A stretch of DNA of 64,000 bases from Segatella copri (GTDB lineage: Bacteria; Bacteroidota; Bacteroidia; Bacteroidales; Bacteroidaceae). The stretch spans positions 1 to 64,000 of the forward strand of contig NZ_NMPZ01000007.1 of NCBI RefSeq assembly GCF_002224675.1, given 5' to 3'. Position numbers and translations under genes: made by a program. The notes beneath the pieces are model-generated. The model made no database searches, was not told where the DNA came from, and was given only the letters and a program-made list of their open reading frames with translations. Below are positions 2,158 through 34,322 of the stretch, one piece after another; the stretch's first letter is position 1, and each line of letters begins with the position of its first letter.

Positions 2158-4404
2158 TTATTTCTCCATAAACTTCTTGGCTGCTCTGAGCTGGTGTCTC
2201 ATCACGCTCAGGAACTCCTGGCTCTCCTGAAGTACATTCAGGTAAACCAGCGAAATCTGCATCAGGGAATTATCTGAAAGATGCTGCATGCGGTCGATAT
2301 GCTTCTTGCGAAGTACGCTGAGCTCATCCTTGCAGGCATCTGCCTCGGCGAGAATCTCGTGGTAGTTCTCGTAGCGGCTGGTCTCAATCTGCTCGCAGCT
2401 CATACGCATCAGGTCGTTGATCTTCTGGCGTACAGGAGCAAACTCCTTGGTGTATTCTGCAGGGAGTGGGTTGAAGTTGTTGTCCACGTGCTCCTTGATA
2501 GGGTCGAGCATACGGCGCAGAGAGTAGATGAACTGCTGGTTGCTGTTGGCACCCAGATGGAACCAGGTGTTGCGCTCGATGGCAATCTCCATAGGCGATT
2601 TCTTCAAACCGAGCATCTCCTGGCGACGGAACTTCTTCAGCATATCCTGCTCCTTCTTCAAGTCCTTGTTGGCATGACGGAGATTCTTAGGATTCTCGTT
2701 GGCAAGACCATCCATAATCTGGTTGAACTCGTTGAGTGCAAAGTGGCAGACGAAGCTCTGGGTGCGGGATACCTGGCGACGAAGCAGATCCCATACAATC
2801 TCTGGATCGTGTGAGCGCATCATCAGTTGGAAGGTGCTGCCCTTGCTCTCTTCCTTTGCCTTTTTGTTATACTGGATGTTGCTGCGGATGAGCAGGAAGA
2901 TAACCAATGCCATGAAGCAGCTCTGGATTCCTACACCGCCGAAGTGCATGATGAGGCAGACAATGGCACAGGCTGCGAAAGCTACACCGGCTGTGATAAA
3001 CCATCCACCAATCACACTCAATACACCGGTTACACGGAACACGGCACTCTCACGGCTCCAAGCTCTATCTGCGAGTGAAGAACCCATTGCTACCATAAAG
3101 GTTACGTAGGTGGTAGAGAGTGGCAACTTCAGGTTGGTACCGATGGTGATAAGCATACTTGCCAATACCAGGTTTACGGCTGCACGAACCACGTCGAAGG
3201 CTGCGCTCTCTTCCAGCTCTACATTGTCCTTGTCGAATCGTCTGTTAATCCAGTTCATCAAAGACTTTGGCATAAACTGCTTCAACCAAGAATCTGTAGC
3301 CTGGCAGTTGCGTACAATCACGCGGGCTGCAGAAGAACTTCCGAACATCTCGTCACCCTCGTCCTGACGGCTCAAATCCACAGAAGTCTTGATTACGTTC
3401 TGAGCCTTCTTGGAAGTTGCCATGGCGATGATCATCACGGCACCGGCAGCGAGAAGATAAACTGGAGTAGTCTTGGCGCTATCCATCAGAGAAGTCATCA
3501 TAAACTGGTTTGGAGTAGCACCATTGGCATTTGCCATATAGTCCTGATAAGAGGAAAGACCTGCGAGAGGCACACCGATGAAGTTCACCAGGTCGTTGCC
3601 GGCGAAAGCCATCGCTAGGGCGAAAGTACCCATCAATACGGTAAACTTGAAGATGTTGATGCGGCAGAGATGCAGGAACTCCATCACGATGGCTGAACCC
3701 ACGAAGGTGATGCAGAGCAACAAGCTCAGGTTCTGGTCGATATAATCACGCCATTCTGCAGGCAGATAAGGACTCTTACCCAATCCTTTCATGAAGATGA
3801 AGTAAGAGAGGGCTGTGAAGGCGATACCACCGAAGATGGCAATGCTGTAGCGTGAATGCTTGCGATAATTGAAAGTGAAGACGATACGGGAAAGCCACAT
3901 CACGAAAGCACCGAATACGAAGGCGATGATAACGGATGAGAAGATACCCATGATAACCTCCAAAGCTTTGTTACTGTTGAGCAATACGCCGTAGTTGAGG
4001 CTATCGTCGCCGTACATCTTCAGGGTTGCGAGGATAAAGGCACCTCCCAGGAGCTCGAACACCAGCGAAACGGTGGTTGAGGTTGGCATACCCAGCGTAT
4101 TGAACACATCCAGGATGATCACATCCGTCACCATCACGGCTAGAAAGAGCGTCATCACTTCCTCGAAGGTAAAGTGATCTGGACTCATGATACCGTGTCG
4201 GGCGATATCCATCATTCCCGATGACATAATGGCACCCAGTACCACACCGCAGGAAGCGATGATCAGCACCGTGCGAAACTTTGCCACCTTAGCTCCGATG
4301 GCAGATTGCAGGAAGTTGACAGCATCGTTGCTGACTCCCACGAAGAGATCAAACACTGCCAGACAGAGCAGGAAGATCACGATACAAAGATAAATCGTAC
4401 TCAT
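2158..4404 (-). CDS. PiT-family inorganic phosphate transporter with PhoU-like C-terminal domain
   Basis: This inner-membrane phosphate:cation symporter has 748 residues, longer than a typical PiT (about 500). The N-terminal half has the PiT signature FVGVSNDAVNFLQSAIGAKVA (residues ~23-43) and the second repeat FAGNDLVNFIGVPLAG. About 12 hydrophobic segments follow to residue ~520. The last ~220 residues are soluble, helical and charged and look like the PhoU-type domain fused to PiT in Bacteroidetes. The gene stands alone, with a -7 box TACCTTTG at 4493-4500 (complement) and its own terminator. Confidence 0.93.
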   Translation of the reverse strand: MSTIYLCIVIFLLCLAVFDLFVGVSNDAVNFLQSAIGAKVAKFRTVLIIASCGVVLGAIMSSGMMDIARHGIMSPDHFTFEEVMTLFLAVMVTDVIILDVFNTLGMPTSTTVSLVFELLGGAFILATLKMYGDDSLNYGVLLNSNKALEVIMGIFSSVIIAFVFGAFVMWLSRIVFTFNYRKHSRYSIAIFGGIAFTALSYFIFMKGLGKSPYLPAEWRDYIDQNLSLLLCITFVGSAIVMEFLHLCRINIFKFTVLMGTFALAMAFAGNDLVNFIGVPLAGLSSYQDYMANANGATPNQFMMTSLMDSAKTTPVYLLAAGAVMIIAMATSKKAQNVIKTSVDLSRQDEGDEMFGSSSAARVIVRNCQATDSWLKQFMPKSLMNWINRRFDKDNVELEESAAFDVVRAAVNLVLASMLITIGTNLKLPLSTTYVTFMVAMGSSLADRAWSRESAVFRVTGVLSVIGGWFITAGVAFAACAIVCLIMHFGGVGIQSCFMALVIFLLIRSNIQYNKKAKEESKGSTFQLMMRSHDPEIVWDLLRRQVSRTQSFVCHFALNEFNQIMDGLANENPKNLRHANKDLKKEQDMLKKFRRQEMLGLKKSPMEIAIERNTWFHLGANSNQQFIYSLRRMLDPIKEHVDNNFNPLPAEYTKEFAPVRQKINDLMRMSCEQIETSRYENYHEILAEADACKDELSVLRKKHIDRMQHLSDNSLMQISLVYLNVLQESQEFLSVMRHQLRAAKKFMEK

Positions 4405-30423: not shown

Positions 30424-30849
30424 CTATACCTCCAGCAGCGGCTGGAGCTTGGTGGCATCGAAGCAGGGACATGCCTTCTGCACGCCAGGCAGGTCACGAT
30501 GACCCAGTATCACCTTGATGTCAGGAAAACGGTGGTGGAGGTTGATGATCAGCCAGAACATCGCATCCTTCTGGGCCGCCGTTCGGGTGTCGGCTATGCA
30601 GCCATTGGCATCCAGTCCGCCCTCATAACAGATGCCGATGGAGTTGGCGTTGGCTCCACGGGCATGCGCACCCATTCGCTCTACCGGACGGCACTCATGT
30701 ACCTTGCCGTCGCGCGTAATATAATAATGATAGCCGATGTCAAACCAGCCGTTCACCTCCACATGGTCGTGGCGCAGCTGCTCTACTGTGTAAGGGTGAT
30801 TGCAGCGGCTACCGCTGCAATGCACCACAATCATATCAATCTTTCTCAT
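30424..30849 (-). CDS. N-acetylmuramoyl-L-alanine amidase (Amidase_2, T7-lysozyme-like)
   Basis: This 141-residue protein cuts the amide bond between muramic acid and the peptide in peptidoglycan. Zinc ligands are visible in MIVVHCSGSR (His10 region), GWFDIGYHYYITRDG, and GHRDLPGVQKACPCFD near the end. There is no signal peptide, as in phage-type amidases. In Bacteroidales this gene commonly follows a smalltalk protein and an HU-like protein, as here. Its cell role in that cluster is unsettled. Confidence 0.93.
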   Translation of the reverse strand: MRKIDMIVVHCSGSRCNHPYTVEQLRHDHVEVNGWFDIGYHYYITRDGKVHECRPVERMGAHARGANANSIGICYEGGLDANGCIADTRTAAQKDAMFWLIINLHHRFPDIKVILGHRDLPGVQKACPCFDATKLQPLLEV

Positions 30850-31034: not shown

Positions 31035-31697
31035 TTACAAACTTACATTGTCACCGTTGCCGGAATCCTCGCCGGTGTTGCCGGTATTCTCACCTGTGCC
31101 GCCTGTTCCCTGGCTGTTGCCGCCACTGTTCTCACCAGTGCTGCCGGTGCCCTGTGATGTGCCGCCTCCGGTGGTGCTTCCTGGCTTGCCGGTCTCGTCT
31201 GTGCCGTCGCCAGCCGCCTCGTCCTTCTTGTACTTCTTTGCCTCCTCGATGTTGAGCGTCTTGGCGCCCGCCTTCTCTGCCTTCATGGCTGCAATCTGCA
31301 GAGCTCTGGATGCCACCTGCTTGTAATCCAGCTCGCTGAACTTGTTCTTCACACCCTCTCCAGGAATATACTGGATGTTTGCCCCGGTGATGTTGACGTC
31401 GCTGCGGAAGTCGGCAGGATTATCTACTCCTGTACTTGTAAGCTGGAGTCGGAACTTGCCCAGCTCACCAAACTCCACCTGGTTGCCGCGCTGAAGCTCT
31501 GTTACCAGGTTATCTACGGCGCTCACCAATACTGCGGTGCAGTCTGCACGGGATACGGTGGTCTGCTTCTCGATCAATCCTGCAAACATCTTGAGCGAGA
31601 TAGAATCGTTGATCTGTGTGCAAGCATAATACTTGCTGTCCGAGGTCTTGTCACCCGGCTTTGCCAAATGCTTTGCTAAACTAAAACTTACTGACAT
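31035..31697 (-). CDS. HU-family (DNABII-like) DNA-binding protein with a Gly/Thr/Asn-rich tail
   Basis: This protein has 220 residues. An HU/IHF-like domain covers about residues 15-125, with the pattern VETELQRGNQVEFGELGKFR, typical of the Bacteroidetes HU-HIG type. The last ~50 residues are a low-complexity tail of GTGGTGENTG-like units, so the protein is probably extended at that end. It is first in the HU-smalltalk-amidase operon. A -7 box TATCTTTG lies at 31762-31769 (complement), right beside the tandem repeats. Confidence 0.9.
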   Translation of the reverse strand: MSVSFSLAKHLAKPGDKTSDSKYYACTQINDSISLKMFAGLIEKQTTVSRADCTAVLVSAVDNLVTELQRGNQVEFGELGKFRLQLTSTGVDNPADFRSDVNITGANIQYIPGEGVKNKFSELDYKQVASRALQIAAMKAEKAGAKTLNIEEAKKYKKDEAAGDGTDETGKPGSTTGGGTSQGTGSTGENSGGNSQGTGGTGENTGNTGEDSGNGDNVSL

Positions 31698-32166: not shown

Positions 32167-32215
32167 TGAATGTTAAGTGCTTGATAATTAGATGGATAGA
32201 TTTGAGAAAATGGCC

Positions 32216-32273
32216 CTTATACTATACCATATATAGTAATATATATACTTTATTATACTTTTTATACTATACG
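32216..32273. other. AT-rich tract beside the iterons
   Basis: It is nearly all A and T, with repeated TATACT/ATATAGTA motifs. In an iteron origin such a tract would be the unwinding region; that role is inference. Confidence 0.5.
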
Positions 32274-32363
32274 TAAACGCGCGTGAAAAATCTTTTTTTT
32301 TAGAAAATTTGATGGAAAATGTATTTTTTCTTCGTTTTTTTTGGTTATTTCAAAAAAAGGTGT

Positions 32364-32371
32364 TACTTTTG
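32364..32371 (+). promoter_or_regulatory. -7 box upstream of the Rep-like gene
   Basis: TACTTTTG fits TAnnTTTG. It implies a ~400-base leader before ATG 32776, holding the direct repeats at 32397-32441 and the folded segment at 32502-32646. Confidence 0.55.
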
Positions 32372-32396
32372 CAATCGGTTAGCTGAAATGACATCA

Positions 32397-32441
32397 AAAG
32401 CTATGGCAAAAAGCTTTGACAACAAAGCTATGGCAAAAAGC
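32397..32441 (+). repeat. Pair of 18-bp direct repeats in the Rep leader
   Basis: AAAGCTATGGCAAAAAGC occurs exactly at 32397-32414 and 32424-32441, 27 bases apart. Confidence 0.8.
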
Positions 32442-32501
32442 AGTATTGTTATGAGGCTGATACAAGTGAGGGTTTTTCAATCGCCCTGAGAGAATAGGTA
32501 C

Positions 32502-32646
32502 ACTCATTCTTTTCCTATCTCTTATGGGTTTGGTATAGGATCCTTACCTGGACATTCTGTGTCCGATTGTTTCGAAAAAAGAATAATCGGCACGGAATGG
32601 ATGGTAAGATGGTATATACCATACGAGCGCTAAAAAAAGAATGAGT
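32502..32646 (+). ncRNA. Candidate structured leader RNA upstream of the Rep-like gene
   Basis: A perfect 12-bp closing stem (ACTCATTCTTTT at 32502-32513, AAAAGAATGAGT at 32635-32646) encloses 121 bases with further hairpins. These are GGACA/TGTCC at 32550-32564, GATT…AATC at 32565-32588, and the perfect palindrome ATGGTATATACCAT at 32609-32622. It lies in the predicted 5' leader, about 130 bases before the start codon. I recognise no known RNA family; a replication-control or attenuation role is a guess. Confidence 0.45.
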
Positions 32647-32775
32647 AAAAGCTCCCAAAGGAAGCTATAAGTAGGCGCTCTGATTGTTATCTTCACCTAT
32701 CCTTCTGTGTCGATTTCCTTTTAAAATATGAATTTGCCTACCTTGAAAAGGGCAGACAGCTAACAAGGAAAAAAG

Positions 32776-33939
32776 ATGACTACACCTAGAAACAATGTAA
32801 TCTCCCTGCTGGGAGTTCAAGGACTGTCGCGAAACAATTATTCCGTTGTGCAGCTCAAGGTAGTTTTGACCATTATTGGCCATGCTCAGAAAGTGATTAA
32901 GGACTACGTGGTAGATGGTCAAATGCCTAATAAGTCTATGCGTAAGCGTTTGACAGCCAGGCAGATGGCAGATGGCTATGTTGTAGTCGTCATCCGCTTG
33001 TCGGATCTATGCGCCCATACCAGCCGCTATAGTCAGGTTAAGAATGCGATAGTGGATATGGCGAAGCGCAAGCCGATAGCCATCCCCTACAAGTGTGATG
33101 TGAACCAGGTGACCTATTACGCTGAATTTCCAAGACTTTTCTCTTGTGAATTCATCAGGATGGGAGGTCATCTGGCGGTGGAGTTCCGTTTCTCCAACGA
33201 TCTGCTGGACTACTTCTACAGTTTCGACAAGGGGGTAGCCCATGTGCATCTGGATGTGGTGAATCACTGCTGCAGTGCGTCATCCATCAAGCTCTACATC
33301 ATTACCCTCTGCTGGGCGTTGAAGGGATATACCAAGATAGATCCCAAGAAGTTTGTGGCGCTGATGCACGGCAGGGAGAATTATTACAAATACTTCAGCG
33401 ATCTGATGTCGAAGAGCCTCCAGCCGGCACTCGACGACCAGAAGCGACTCTACGACTGTGGCATGGTAGATCAGTATCTCACGCTATCTACCTATTATTC
33501 CGAGGAGGATGCCCTGAGAGCTGAGCAGCGCTGCGTGGGGTGGCCTACCTACCTGGTTTTTACGGTCCACTGCCGTGAGGATGAAGTGCAGGAAGATAAG
33601 ATTCCGGAGGAATTGCGCTCTCAACGTATCCAGTTGAAAATCAAGCTGATGAATCGTTATGATGTAAGCGAGGCTACTGCGAAGGAGCTGAGCAGTCATC
33701 TCTTTCTGGGAATGTTGGGCGACTTTGTGGTGTGGTTTGAGCGCAAGGAAAAGTATGTTGCCGAGCGCATCCGTCTGCATCAGCCTATGAAAAAGGCAGC
33801 ATATATCGTGAGTGCCCTCCGTGGTTTCTTCAAGGATAGAGGCAGTCTGCCTGTGAAATCTTCCGGAGCATCCTCTCCGGATCCTGTTCCCGTAGCCAAG
33901 CCTTTTCCTCCTGTTCCGTCTAACCTCAAAAATGACTAG
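32776..33939 (+). CDS. Rep_3/RepB-like replication initiation protein
   Basis: This 387-residue protein has the two-winged-helix organisation of Rep_3 initiators. The first part includes LSRNNYSVVQLKVVLTIIGH, VVVVIRLSDLCAHTSRYSQVKNAI and a MAKRKPIAIPY turn. The second includes LAVEFRFSNDLLDYFYSF, SSIKLYIITLCWALKG and YKYFSDLMSKSLQPALDD. The C-terminus is Pro/Ser-rich. Iteron-like repeats and an AT-rich tract upstream support an initiator function. It is followed 3 bp later by a DUF4248 gene. Whether it is active in a chromosome, or marks an integrated element, cannot be told. Confidence 0.72.
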   Translation: MTTPRNNVISLLGVQGLSRNNYSVVQLKVVLTIIGHAQKVIKDYVVDGQMPNKSMRKRLTARQMADGYVVVVIRLSDLCAHTSRYSQVKNAIVDMAKRKPIAIPYKCDVNQVTYYAEFPRLFSCEFIRMGGHLAVEFRFSNDLLDYFYSFDKGVAHVHLDVVNHCCSASSIKLYIITLCWALKGYTKIDPKKFVALMHGRENYYKYFSDLMSKSLQPALDDQKRLYDCGMVDQYLTLSTYYSEEDALRAEQRCVGWPTYLVFTVHCREDEVQEDKIPEELRSQRIQLKIKLMNRYDVSEATAKELSSHLFLGMLGDFVVWFERKEKYVAERIRLHQPMKKAAYIVSALRGFFKDRGSLPVKSSGASSPDPVPVAKPFPPVPSNLKND

Positions 33940-33942
33940 CTT

Positions 33943-34176
33943 ATGCAAGATGCCAATCACAATAACAATATGATGATGGGCAAGGCAGATCTCGCCTTGC
34001 AGTATTTTCCGATGGCGGGCGACAAGATTACGGCTCGCCGACACCTGATGTCATGGATCAAGCGCTGTCCACCCCTATGGGAGGGCATCCGCCAACTGGG
34101 CTATCATCAGCGGTGTCAATACTTTTCTCCCAAAATGGTGCAATTGATTTACCATTTCCTGGGAGAGCCTGGCTAA
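33943..34176 (+). CDS. DUF4248-family protein
   Basis: This 77-residue protein carries the family pattern LALQYFPMAGDKITARRHLM, then SWIKRCPPLWEGIRQLGY and the end MVQLIYHFLGEPG. The HTH-like look suggests a DNA-binding accessory. It is almost directly joined to the Rep-like gene, so the two are likely co-translated. DUF4248 genes often occur near HU-like and smalltalk genes in Bacteroidales. Confidence 0.8.
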   Translation: MQDANHNNNMMMGKADLALQYFPMAGDKITARRHLMSWIKRCPPLWEGIRQLGYHQRCQYFSPKMVQLIYHFLGEPG

Positions 34177-34290: not shown

Positions 34291-34322
34291 GAGGGTGCGT
34301 CATGGACTTATGACGCACCCTC
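34291..34322. terminator. Hairpin with loop GGACTT (copy A)
   Basis: The 13-bp arms GAGGGTGCGTCAT and ATGACGCACCCTC enclose GGACTT. The same hairpin with the loop reversed (AAGTCC) lies at 41010-41041. Confidence 0.75.

Follow-up and report, generated by a model that had tools for sequence, protein, structure and literature searches.

A leader RNA of about 400 nt upstream of a replication-initiator-like (rep) gene of Segatella copri consists of four strands, X-A-B-A′, with competing pairings that are kept in related genes. The rep-like gene lies at positions 32776–33939 (plus strand) of the window, by which we mean the whole stretch of 64,000 nucleotides analysed, and the leader RNA occupies approximately 32376–32775. 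The competing pairings, their recurrence in relatives, the compensatory changes within them and a G-U bias of the rep-sense strand were all computed from up to five Rep-family leaders, namely that of the window (W), L003, L035, L036 and L004. We tentatively read this leader as a cis-acting RNA switch in which B:A′ is most likely the off state and A:B a pre-emptor that would keep rep on, a reading suggested by sequence and predicted folds that we consider quite possible, though short of probable.

The rep-like gene is followed by a DUF4248 gene (33943–34176, plus strand). The same module holds an HU-HIG DNA-binding gene that is divergent to rep (31035–31697, minus strand) and a phage-endolysin-like N-acetylmuramoyl-L-alanine amidase gene (30424–30849, minus strand), all three being assigned by domain matches. 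The window lies on a contig of 157,897 bases, one of the 87 that make up a 3.9-Mb genome, among genes of an ordinary chromosomal kind, as read from the open reading frames (ORFs). Judged by this gene content, the locus is chromosomal rather than an extrachromosomal multicopy replicon, which makes the 'copy control' proposed in an earlier, sequence-only reading of this DNA doubtful. After the DUF4248 gene, at 34291–34322 of the window, there is a strong inverted repeat, GAGGGTGCGTCAT/ATGACGCACCCTC, and similar palindromes occur in L036 at about 660–800 and 2878–2910; it may be a dispersed repeat doubling as a terminator.

The leader is preceded by TTTG-20 nt-TACTTTTG (32340–32371, plus strand), an exact match to what we take to be the Bacteroidales −33/−7 promoter consensus. 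With the RNA predicted from this promoter to start at 32376 and the rep ATG at 32776, the leader has the length of about 400 bases that had been proposed for it. Long untranslated leaders stand before the rep genes of W, L003 and L035, with distances of 412, 366 and 365 nt, respectively, from the promoter −7 element to the ATG; for L004, about 350 nt was taken as the leader. Two exact 18-bp repeats already pointed out in this region are indeed present (32397–32414 and 32424–32441, plus strand), with a third, 72% copy between them. The two exact copies belong to a 33-codon upstream ORF (32388–32489), in which they are in frame at a distance of 27 nt and each encode KAMAKS. The repeats are absent from the leaders of the relatives, as judged from inspection of the sequences and a four-leader alignment, and the 33-codon ORF is not conserved there either.

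The element at 32502–32646 (145 nt) folds as RNA with an energy of −56.2 kcal/mol (z −7.34), and none of 200 shuffles is as good, bearing out the earlier proposal of a structured RNA at this place. Over 32376–32800 the fold has a z of −6.08 (0 of 100 shuffles as good), and the opposite strand of the same interval gives −4.79. The leader has nothing in common with Rfam families: none of 4227 matched the window at gathering score, and the best sub-threshold match in 32200–32800 reached 20.8 bits against a cut-off of 41.2. Both the 12-bp helix (ACTCATTCTTTT at 32502–32513 with AAAAGAATGAGT at 32635–32646) and the 14-bp palindrome (ATGGTATATACCAT, 32609–32622) that the sequence-only reading described are in the sequence. 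Its picture of a closing helix around several hairpins holds for the helix and fails for the inner layout, as the element on its own folds into one long interrupted hairpin. When the full leader is folded, the 12-bp helix is itself displaced, its 5′ strand lying in the loop of a hairpin between X and A (GAGAGAATAGG/CCTATCTCTT, arms 32488–32498 and 32514–32523, plus strand). The structure originally reported is thus one of several competing pairings. L003 and L035 each have their own hairpin at the position between X and A.

The four strands all lie on the plus strand of the window. Strand X (region 1, 32438–32498), placed by helix search and folds and free of double changes, has a core, AAGTGAGGGT (32464–32473), that pairs with A. 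Strand A (region 2, 32502–32572; fold, helix search and covariation) is the 5′ arm of the 145-nt hairpin. Strand B (region 3, 32577–32646; helix search, covariation and a scan of upstream regions) is common to A:B and B:A′, and strand A′ (region 4, 32685–32722; helix search and covariation), the alternative partner of B, ends 53 nt before the start codon.

At the DNA level, similarity to the leader outside its own genome is limited to the promoter region, in 29 other genomes of 200 (30 of 200 including its own); the matches all start at query position 1–11 and end by 64. Homologues were therefore reached through the Rep protein. They are L003, at contig C2 of the same genome (G000; Rep 39% identity), L035 in genome G044 (43%), L036, a second copy in G044 whose rep frame is broken, and L004, at contig C6 of G000 (27%), in which a different leader sequence has the same X-A-B-A′ chain. 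Protein-based scans of genome contigs and viral contigs revealed no further relative, and a search with two viral DNA patterns gave no match. Plasmids (72,556 records) contained no DNA match for the leader plus rep of W or L035, and phages none for the window's own leader and rep gene; with the G044 copy as query, two gut 'phage' scaffolds matched in part and plasmids not at all. A covariance model, run with the stricter filters of Infernal on 299 genomes, recovered the element in 2, and there only at the loci already known. It scored 79.7–109 bits in the sense orientation and 18.2–48.9 in the opposite one, a difference that we do not count as evidence on the strand, the model itself having been made from sense-strand sequence.

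These results bear on the alternative that the leader is the precursor of a stable non-coding RNA that works in trans or serves as a replication primer. Such an RNA would suit the very stable hairpin and the leader cores of L036, which are intact although the rep frame is broken. Yet in all four unbroken Rep loci the initiator gene follows the element, and the covariance model matched nowhere but at the known loci; we consider this explanation highly improbable.

In a helix search, the two best helices of all five Rep-family leaders are A:B and B:A′ with B as their common strand, and the upstream strand X can also pair with A. Each leader was scored by the lower of its A:B and B:A′ values and compared with 40 dinucleotide shuffles. 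W (53), L035 (41), L036 (46) and L004 (55) score above all 40 shuffles; L003 (35) is not above chance, three of its 40 shuffles reaching the score. When 40 upstream regions were scanned, in slightly shorter stretches than in the helix search, the Rep-family leaders ranked 1, 2, 4, 5 and 6 by z, each with none of 60 shuffles as high. The third rank went to L149, a primase-type locus discussed below, and the seventh to L128, which is not a leader of the DUF4248 module. The 40 regions comprised 38 loci with at least 250 nt upstream, together with L004 and L036. These 38 came from 50 loci, 10 of which had no upstream gene by rule and one of which (L056) had no DUF4248 match, so that 38 of the remaining 39 were used; many of the genes scanned lie outside any DUF4248 module.

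Constrained folding shows how the strands compete. A penalty on A:B makes B:A′ and X:A appear jointly in all five leaders, X:A with 30, 10, 9, 9 and 21 pairs in W, L003, L035, L036 and L004, respectively; a penalty on B:A′ makes A:B appear, again in every leader. The energies of the A:B and B:A′ states (kcal/mol) are −127.7 and −124.8 in W, −111.9 and −114.9 in L003, −115.3 and −107.4 in L035, −112.3 and −100.2 in L036, and −123.6 and −125.2 in L004. The two states of W thus differ by about 3 kcal/mol; W and L003 are near balance, on opposite sides, and the G044 leaders prefer A:B by 8–12 kcal/mol. The unconstrained minimum of L004 (−133.8) holds 31 A:B pairs and 25 B:A′ pairs at once, so that exclusion is only partial in this leader.

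The predicted state of the start region (−20 to +10) complicates the assignment of on and off. In every one of the five leaders its predicted openness is higher in the B:A′ state, with unpaired values in the A:B and B:A′ states of 0.44 and 0.56 in W, 0.58 and 0.87 in L003, 0.50 and 0.56 in L035, 0.44 and 0.72 in L036, and 0.37 and 0.49 in L004. If control were translational, this would be the opposite of B:A′ being off, and it lowers the attenuation reading while raising one in which the same switch acts on translation or mRNA stability, with B:A′ as the on state and a protein (Rep itself, for instance), a ribosome or temperature selecting between states. The switch itself is equally well supported either way, and the gain in openness is largest in L003 and L036. 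Translational control is harder to reconcile with an A′ strand that ends about 50–70 nt upstream of the start codon and with the small difference in openness in W, L035 and L004 (0.06–0.12). It would also leave the U-rich run after A′ without a role, and the upstream ORFs are not conserved. On balance we regard it as rather unlikely, and we retain attenuation as the preferred reading.

Covariation was evaluated on the four leaders that could be aligned, of which one duplicates another, with L004 and the primase-type leaders L161 and L162 compared by architecture only; the argument is carried by three to four independent sequences. Compensatory changes in relatives, on which the sequence-only reading had staked its proposal, were found, in a small number of leaders: pairing is kept through double changes in 4 of 26 A:B pairs and 3 of 18 B:A′ pairs. 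Overall, 95.1% of 103 cells are paired in A:B and 94.4% of 72 cells in B:A′, against 33.7–45.8% in slid controls with partners shifted by 1–3 columns. Among 500 shuffles, the percentage paired was reached by 2 (A:B) and 6 (B:A′), the covariation score by 10 and 6, and the double-change count by 48 and 39. The shared strand is well illustrated by column 224 of B, which two leaders have as C and two as U; column 190 of A and column 349 of A′ change with it, each being G or A. For X:A, 94.4% of 36 cells are paired; there is no double-changed pair and the shuffles are uninformative (500 of 500), so that what speaks for this helix is pairing alone. A comparison of the two G044 copies over 53 core pairs of X:A, A:B and B:A′ showed no difference, while the sequence linking B to A′ is scrambled; their outer closing helix, the counterpart of the 12-bp helix, shows two compensatory changes and one broken pair.

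The type of mismatch tolerated in the helices points to RNA of the rep-sense strand over DNA repeats. The helices of the four Rep-type leaders contain 34 G-U against 15 A-C oppositions, a difference reached by none of 60 shuffle sets, with G-U and A-C scored alike in both finding and aligning the helices. Earlier counts were 51 versus 11, on segments from a G-U-friendly score, and 46 versus 18, with symmetric scoring; the G-U-friendly score used in finding segments was the reason for a symmetric recount, and we rely on 34 versus 15. This excess argues against the possibility that the repeats act in DNA, either as inverted or direct sites of a replication origin or as an operator bound by Rep. 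Rep_3 initiators do use repeats near their own gene, and some primase-type loci of the same kind carry near-perfect, DNA-like inverted repeats. However, A′ in L003 and W still pairs with B despite a sequence that departs from A, and the L004 leader has the same layout in a different sequence. Tandem iterons of the Rep_3 origin type were not found in the leader, which has only the two 18-bp repeats and their 72% copy. An action in DNA therefore seems improbable to us.

We propose the following working of an attenuator-type switch. The rep mRNA would start with the four strands X-A-B-A′. In state 1, A would pair with B in the 145-nt hairpin; in state 2, X:A would free B, which could then form B:A′ about 50–70 nt before the start codon and leave a U-rich run behind a G+C-rich stem. 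B:A′ would be the off state, terminating transcription intrinsically or reducing rep expression through a pause; A:B, as pre-emptor, would keep rep on. This would amount to attenuation of the 1:2/2:3/3:4 kind. In W, the U-rich run recognized by T count, ATTTCCTTTT (32713–32722, plus strand), follows the G+C-richer end of B:A′. Over the 10 nt beyond A′ there are 7, 6, 5, 6 and 6 T in W, L003, L035, L004 and L149, respectively, a sum of 30 compared with 14.4 at random positions (0 of 100,000 draws as high), in windows placed by eye after the sequences had been inspected; in L035 and L036 the 10 nt behind B are rich in T as well (6 and 5, respectively). The U-rich run follows the G+C-rich end of the stem, but the loop of about 70 nt is long for an intrinsic terminator and a consensus terminator scan does not list B:A′, so that we infer termination at B:A′, as we do which state is on and what would flip the switch.

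Trp-type attenuators are built on a four-strand chain of 1:2, 2:3 and 3:4 pairings with two competing folds, and the leader described here shares this arrangement. Unlike them, it would control a replication initiator and has no conserved leader peptide: no conserved upstream ORF was found among the five leaders, whose ORFs differ in place and sequence, the near-identical G044 copies aside. An attenuator or other cis-regulatory RNA is the best fit among the three roles that had been offered for the element.

The leader appears functionally closest to the rep leaders of pT181 (repC) and pIP501 (repR), which form mutually exclusive pre-emptor and terminator-type stems before the rep start codon (PMC5703833). 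Common to these leaders and ours are a long untranslated rep leader, mutually exclusive arms (only partly so in L004) and, before the start codon, what may be a terminator-like structure. In contrast to them, our leader stands before an initiator with a Rep_3 domain in a chromosomal module, its B:A′ loop spans about 70 nt and no conserved antisense promoter was found at it; no sequence relation between the two has been established. The same anatomy, a long rep leader with pre-emptor and terminator arms (PMC5703833), would fit countertranscript control, whereby an antisense RNA from the opposite strand would bind X/A during transcription and force B:A′. Against this, an opposite-strand promoter match occurs in only one of the five leaders, near its 5′ end and pointing outwards, and copy-number feedback would have no obvious use at a chromosomal locus. 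We judge such control improbable, and the antisense-target option of the sequence-only reading is left without support. Because no antisense promoter was found and the locus is chromosomal, we do not claim membership in the pT181/pIP501 group.

The initiator downstream of this leader is recognizable by domain and predicted fold. Its Rep3_N domain scores 25.2 bits, above the Pfam cut-off of 22.4; in the family, two of four members reach the Pfam model at E 0.1. The AlphaFold model (pLDDT 69) is RepE-like: a PDB structure search placed entries named RepE at ranks 1, 2, 6, 8, 10 and 11 and another Rep at rank 9, the other four of the first eleven being co-crystal entries with no protein name in their titles. 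E values of these eleven ranks run from 2.9e-4 to 2.3e-2, four being at 0.001 or better. The best structure match has 10% sequence identity, and no PDB sequence matched the Rep profile at E 0.1. The protein thus resembles Rep_3 initiators such as RepE of F in its domain, which passes the Pfam cut-off, and in a predicted fold nearest to Rep structures; it differs from RepE in this low identity and in being chromosomal, beside DUF4248, HU-HIG and amidase genes.

The genome of the window has seven DUF4248 genes, and three of these loci (contigs C7, C2 and C6) include a Rep gene of this family. The C6 locus has its DUF4248 and amidase genes pointing away from rep and yielded no HU gene over the 8 kb inspected. 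The other four loci carry other genes, with no match to the Rep profile. DUF4248 occurs in 32 of 120 genomes of the genus. At E 1e-20, the window's Rep family is present in 2 of 398 genomes (G000 and G044); with the Rep profile at E 1e-8, matches extend to 50 of 398, and the 48 outside G000 and G044 are all below 130 bits. Five loci with such matches (L037–L041) showed by eye no comparable leader upstream and were set aside as Rep genes of other elements. A distant Rep-DUF4248 locus of G377 (L094) was also rejected: its inverted repeats lie approximately 305–224 nt before the gene, upstream of a promoter 110 nt before the gene, and it has no such leader. In one gut 'phage' scaffold (L160, MT838134.1, 1–502), the module promoter region runs directly into a shortened DUF4248 gene, the leader and rep being missing. 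In L056 (2700–4400), a second module copy in G044 with a broken rep, the sequence before the promoter has the reverse orientation with respect to the leader. DUF4248 genes are often accompanied by an HU-HIG gene, an endolysin-like amidase gene and the gene of a replication initiator, either a Rep or a primase, and this gene set looks like a reduced phage satellite or an integrated replicon.

Primase-type initiators provide a second setting for the layout. The L149 gene, in another genome, encodes BT4734-like (PrimPol) and VapE domains, and the leaders of L149/L161 (G166) and of its 83% orthologue L162 (G233) have an A-B-A′ layout in a sequence unrelated to the Rep leaders. Helix scores are 49/47 for L149/L161 and 51/43 for L162, and G-U exceeds A-C by 12 to 3 in L161 and by 15 to 6 in L162. 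Between L161 and L162, B:A′ shows one compensatory, three wobble and one broken pair, and A:B one compensatory, three wobble and five broken pairs. The A-B-A′ chain was not found in the other primase-type leaders examined, several of which have near-perfect inverted repeats instead. The repeats of L163, L166, L050, L123, L053 and L175 are long and nearly Watson-Crick, with no clear joint G-U excess, and we do not count them as the same element.

Long, almost perfect inverted repeats occur in some primase-type DUF4248 loci and close relatives, as in L050 (contig C19 of G000, 3540–3775), L123, L163 (1352–1502) and L166 (1239–1441). Short repeated motifs, GGTGAAC and GGTGACA, precede the gene in L050, L123 and L166, and one motif of L050 is identical to the phage P4 origin iteron, GGTGAACAG. 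The inverted repeats of L050, L123, L163 and L166 are perhaps replication origins. A very strong A-B-A′-like set of repeats, with scores of 91 and 69 and CTTTACAG at its ends, lies at about 3375–3650 of L128, outside the DUF4248 module and between a lipoprotein-like gene and another gene; it is perhaps a small mobile element.

To our knowledge, few leader attenuators seem to have been described in Bacteroidales. Searches of the literature for this gene set, for rep leaders in this group and for Bacteroidales leader attenuators returned no paper, and among the available passages of three papers that mention DUF4248 (PMC6231650, PMC10394638 and PMC10434189) none describes such a leader. We entertain as a possibility, albeit a doubtful one, that, in Prevotella-like bacteria, the replication initiators of a chromosomal module with DUF4248, HU and endolysin genes are governed by a new class of switch RNA. 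This RNA would stand before two unrelated types of initiator, Rep_3 and PrimPol/VapE primase, that share no leader sequence, the X-A-B-A′ chain having either arisen twice or been kept through compensatory turnover, and it would bring a plasmid- or satellite-style control of replication onto the chromosome. Should this be so, a replication initiator on the chromosome of a gut commensal is under the control of a plasmid-style RNA switch, the initiator sits in a four-gene module of Rep, DUF4248, HU and an endolysin-like amidase, and Bacteroidales would have a new RNA family. The leader offers a handle for asking when, and whether, this module replicates DNA.
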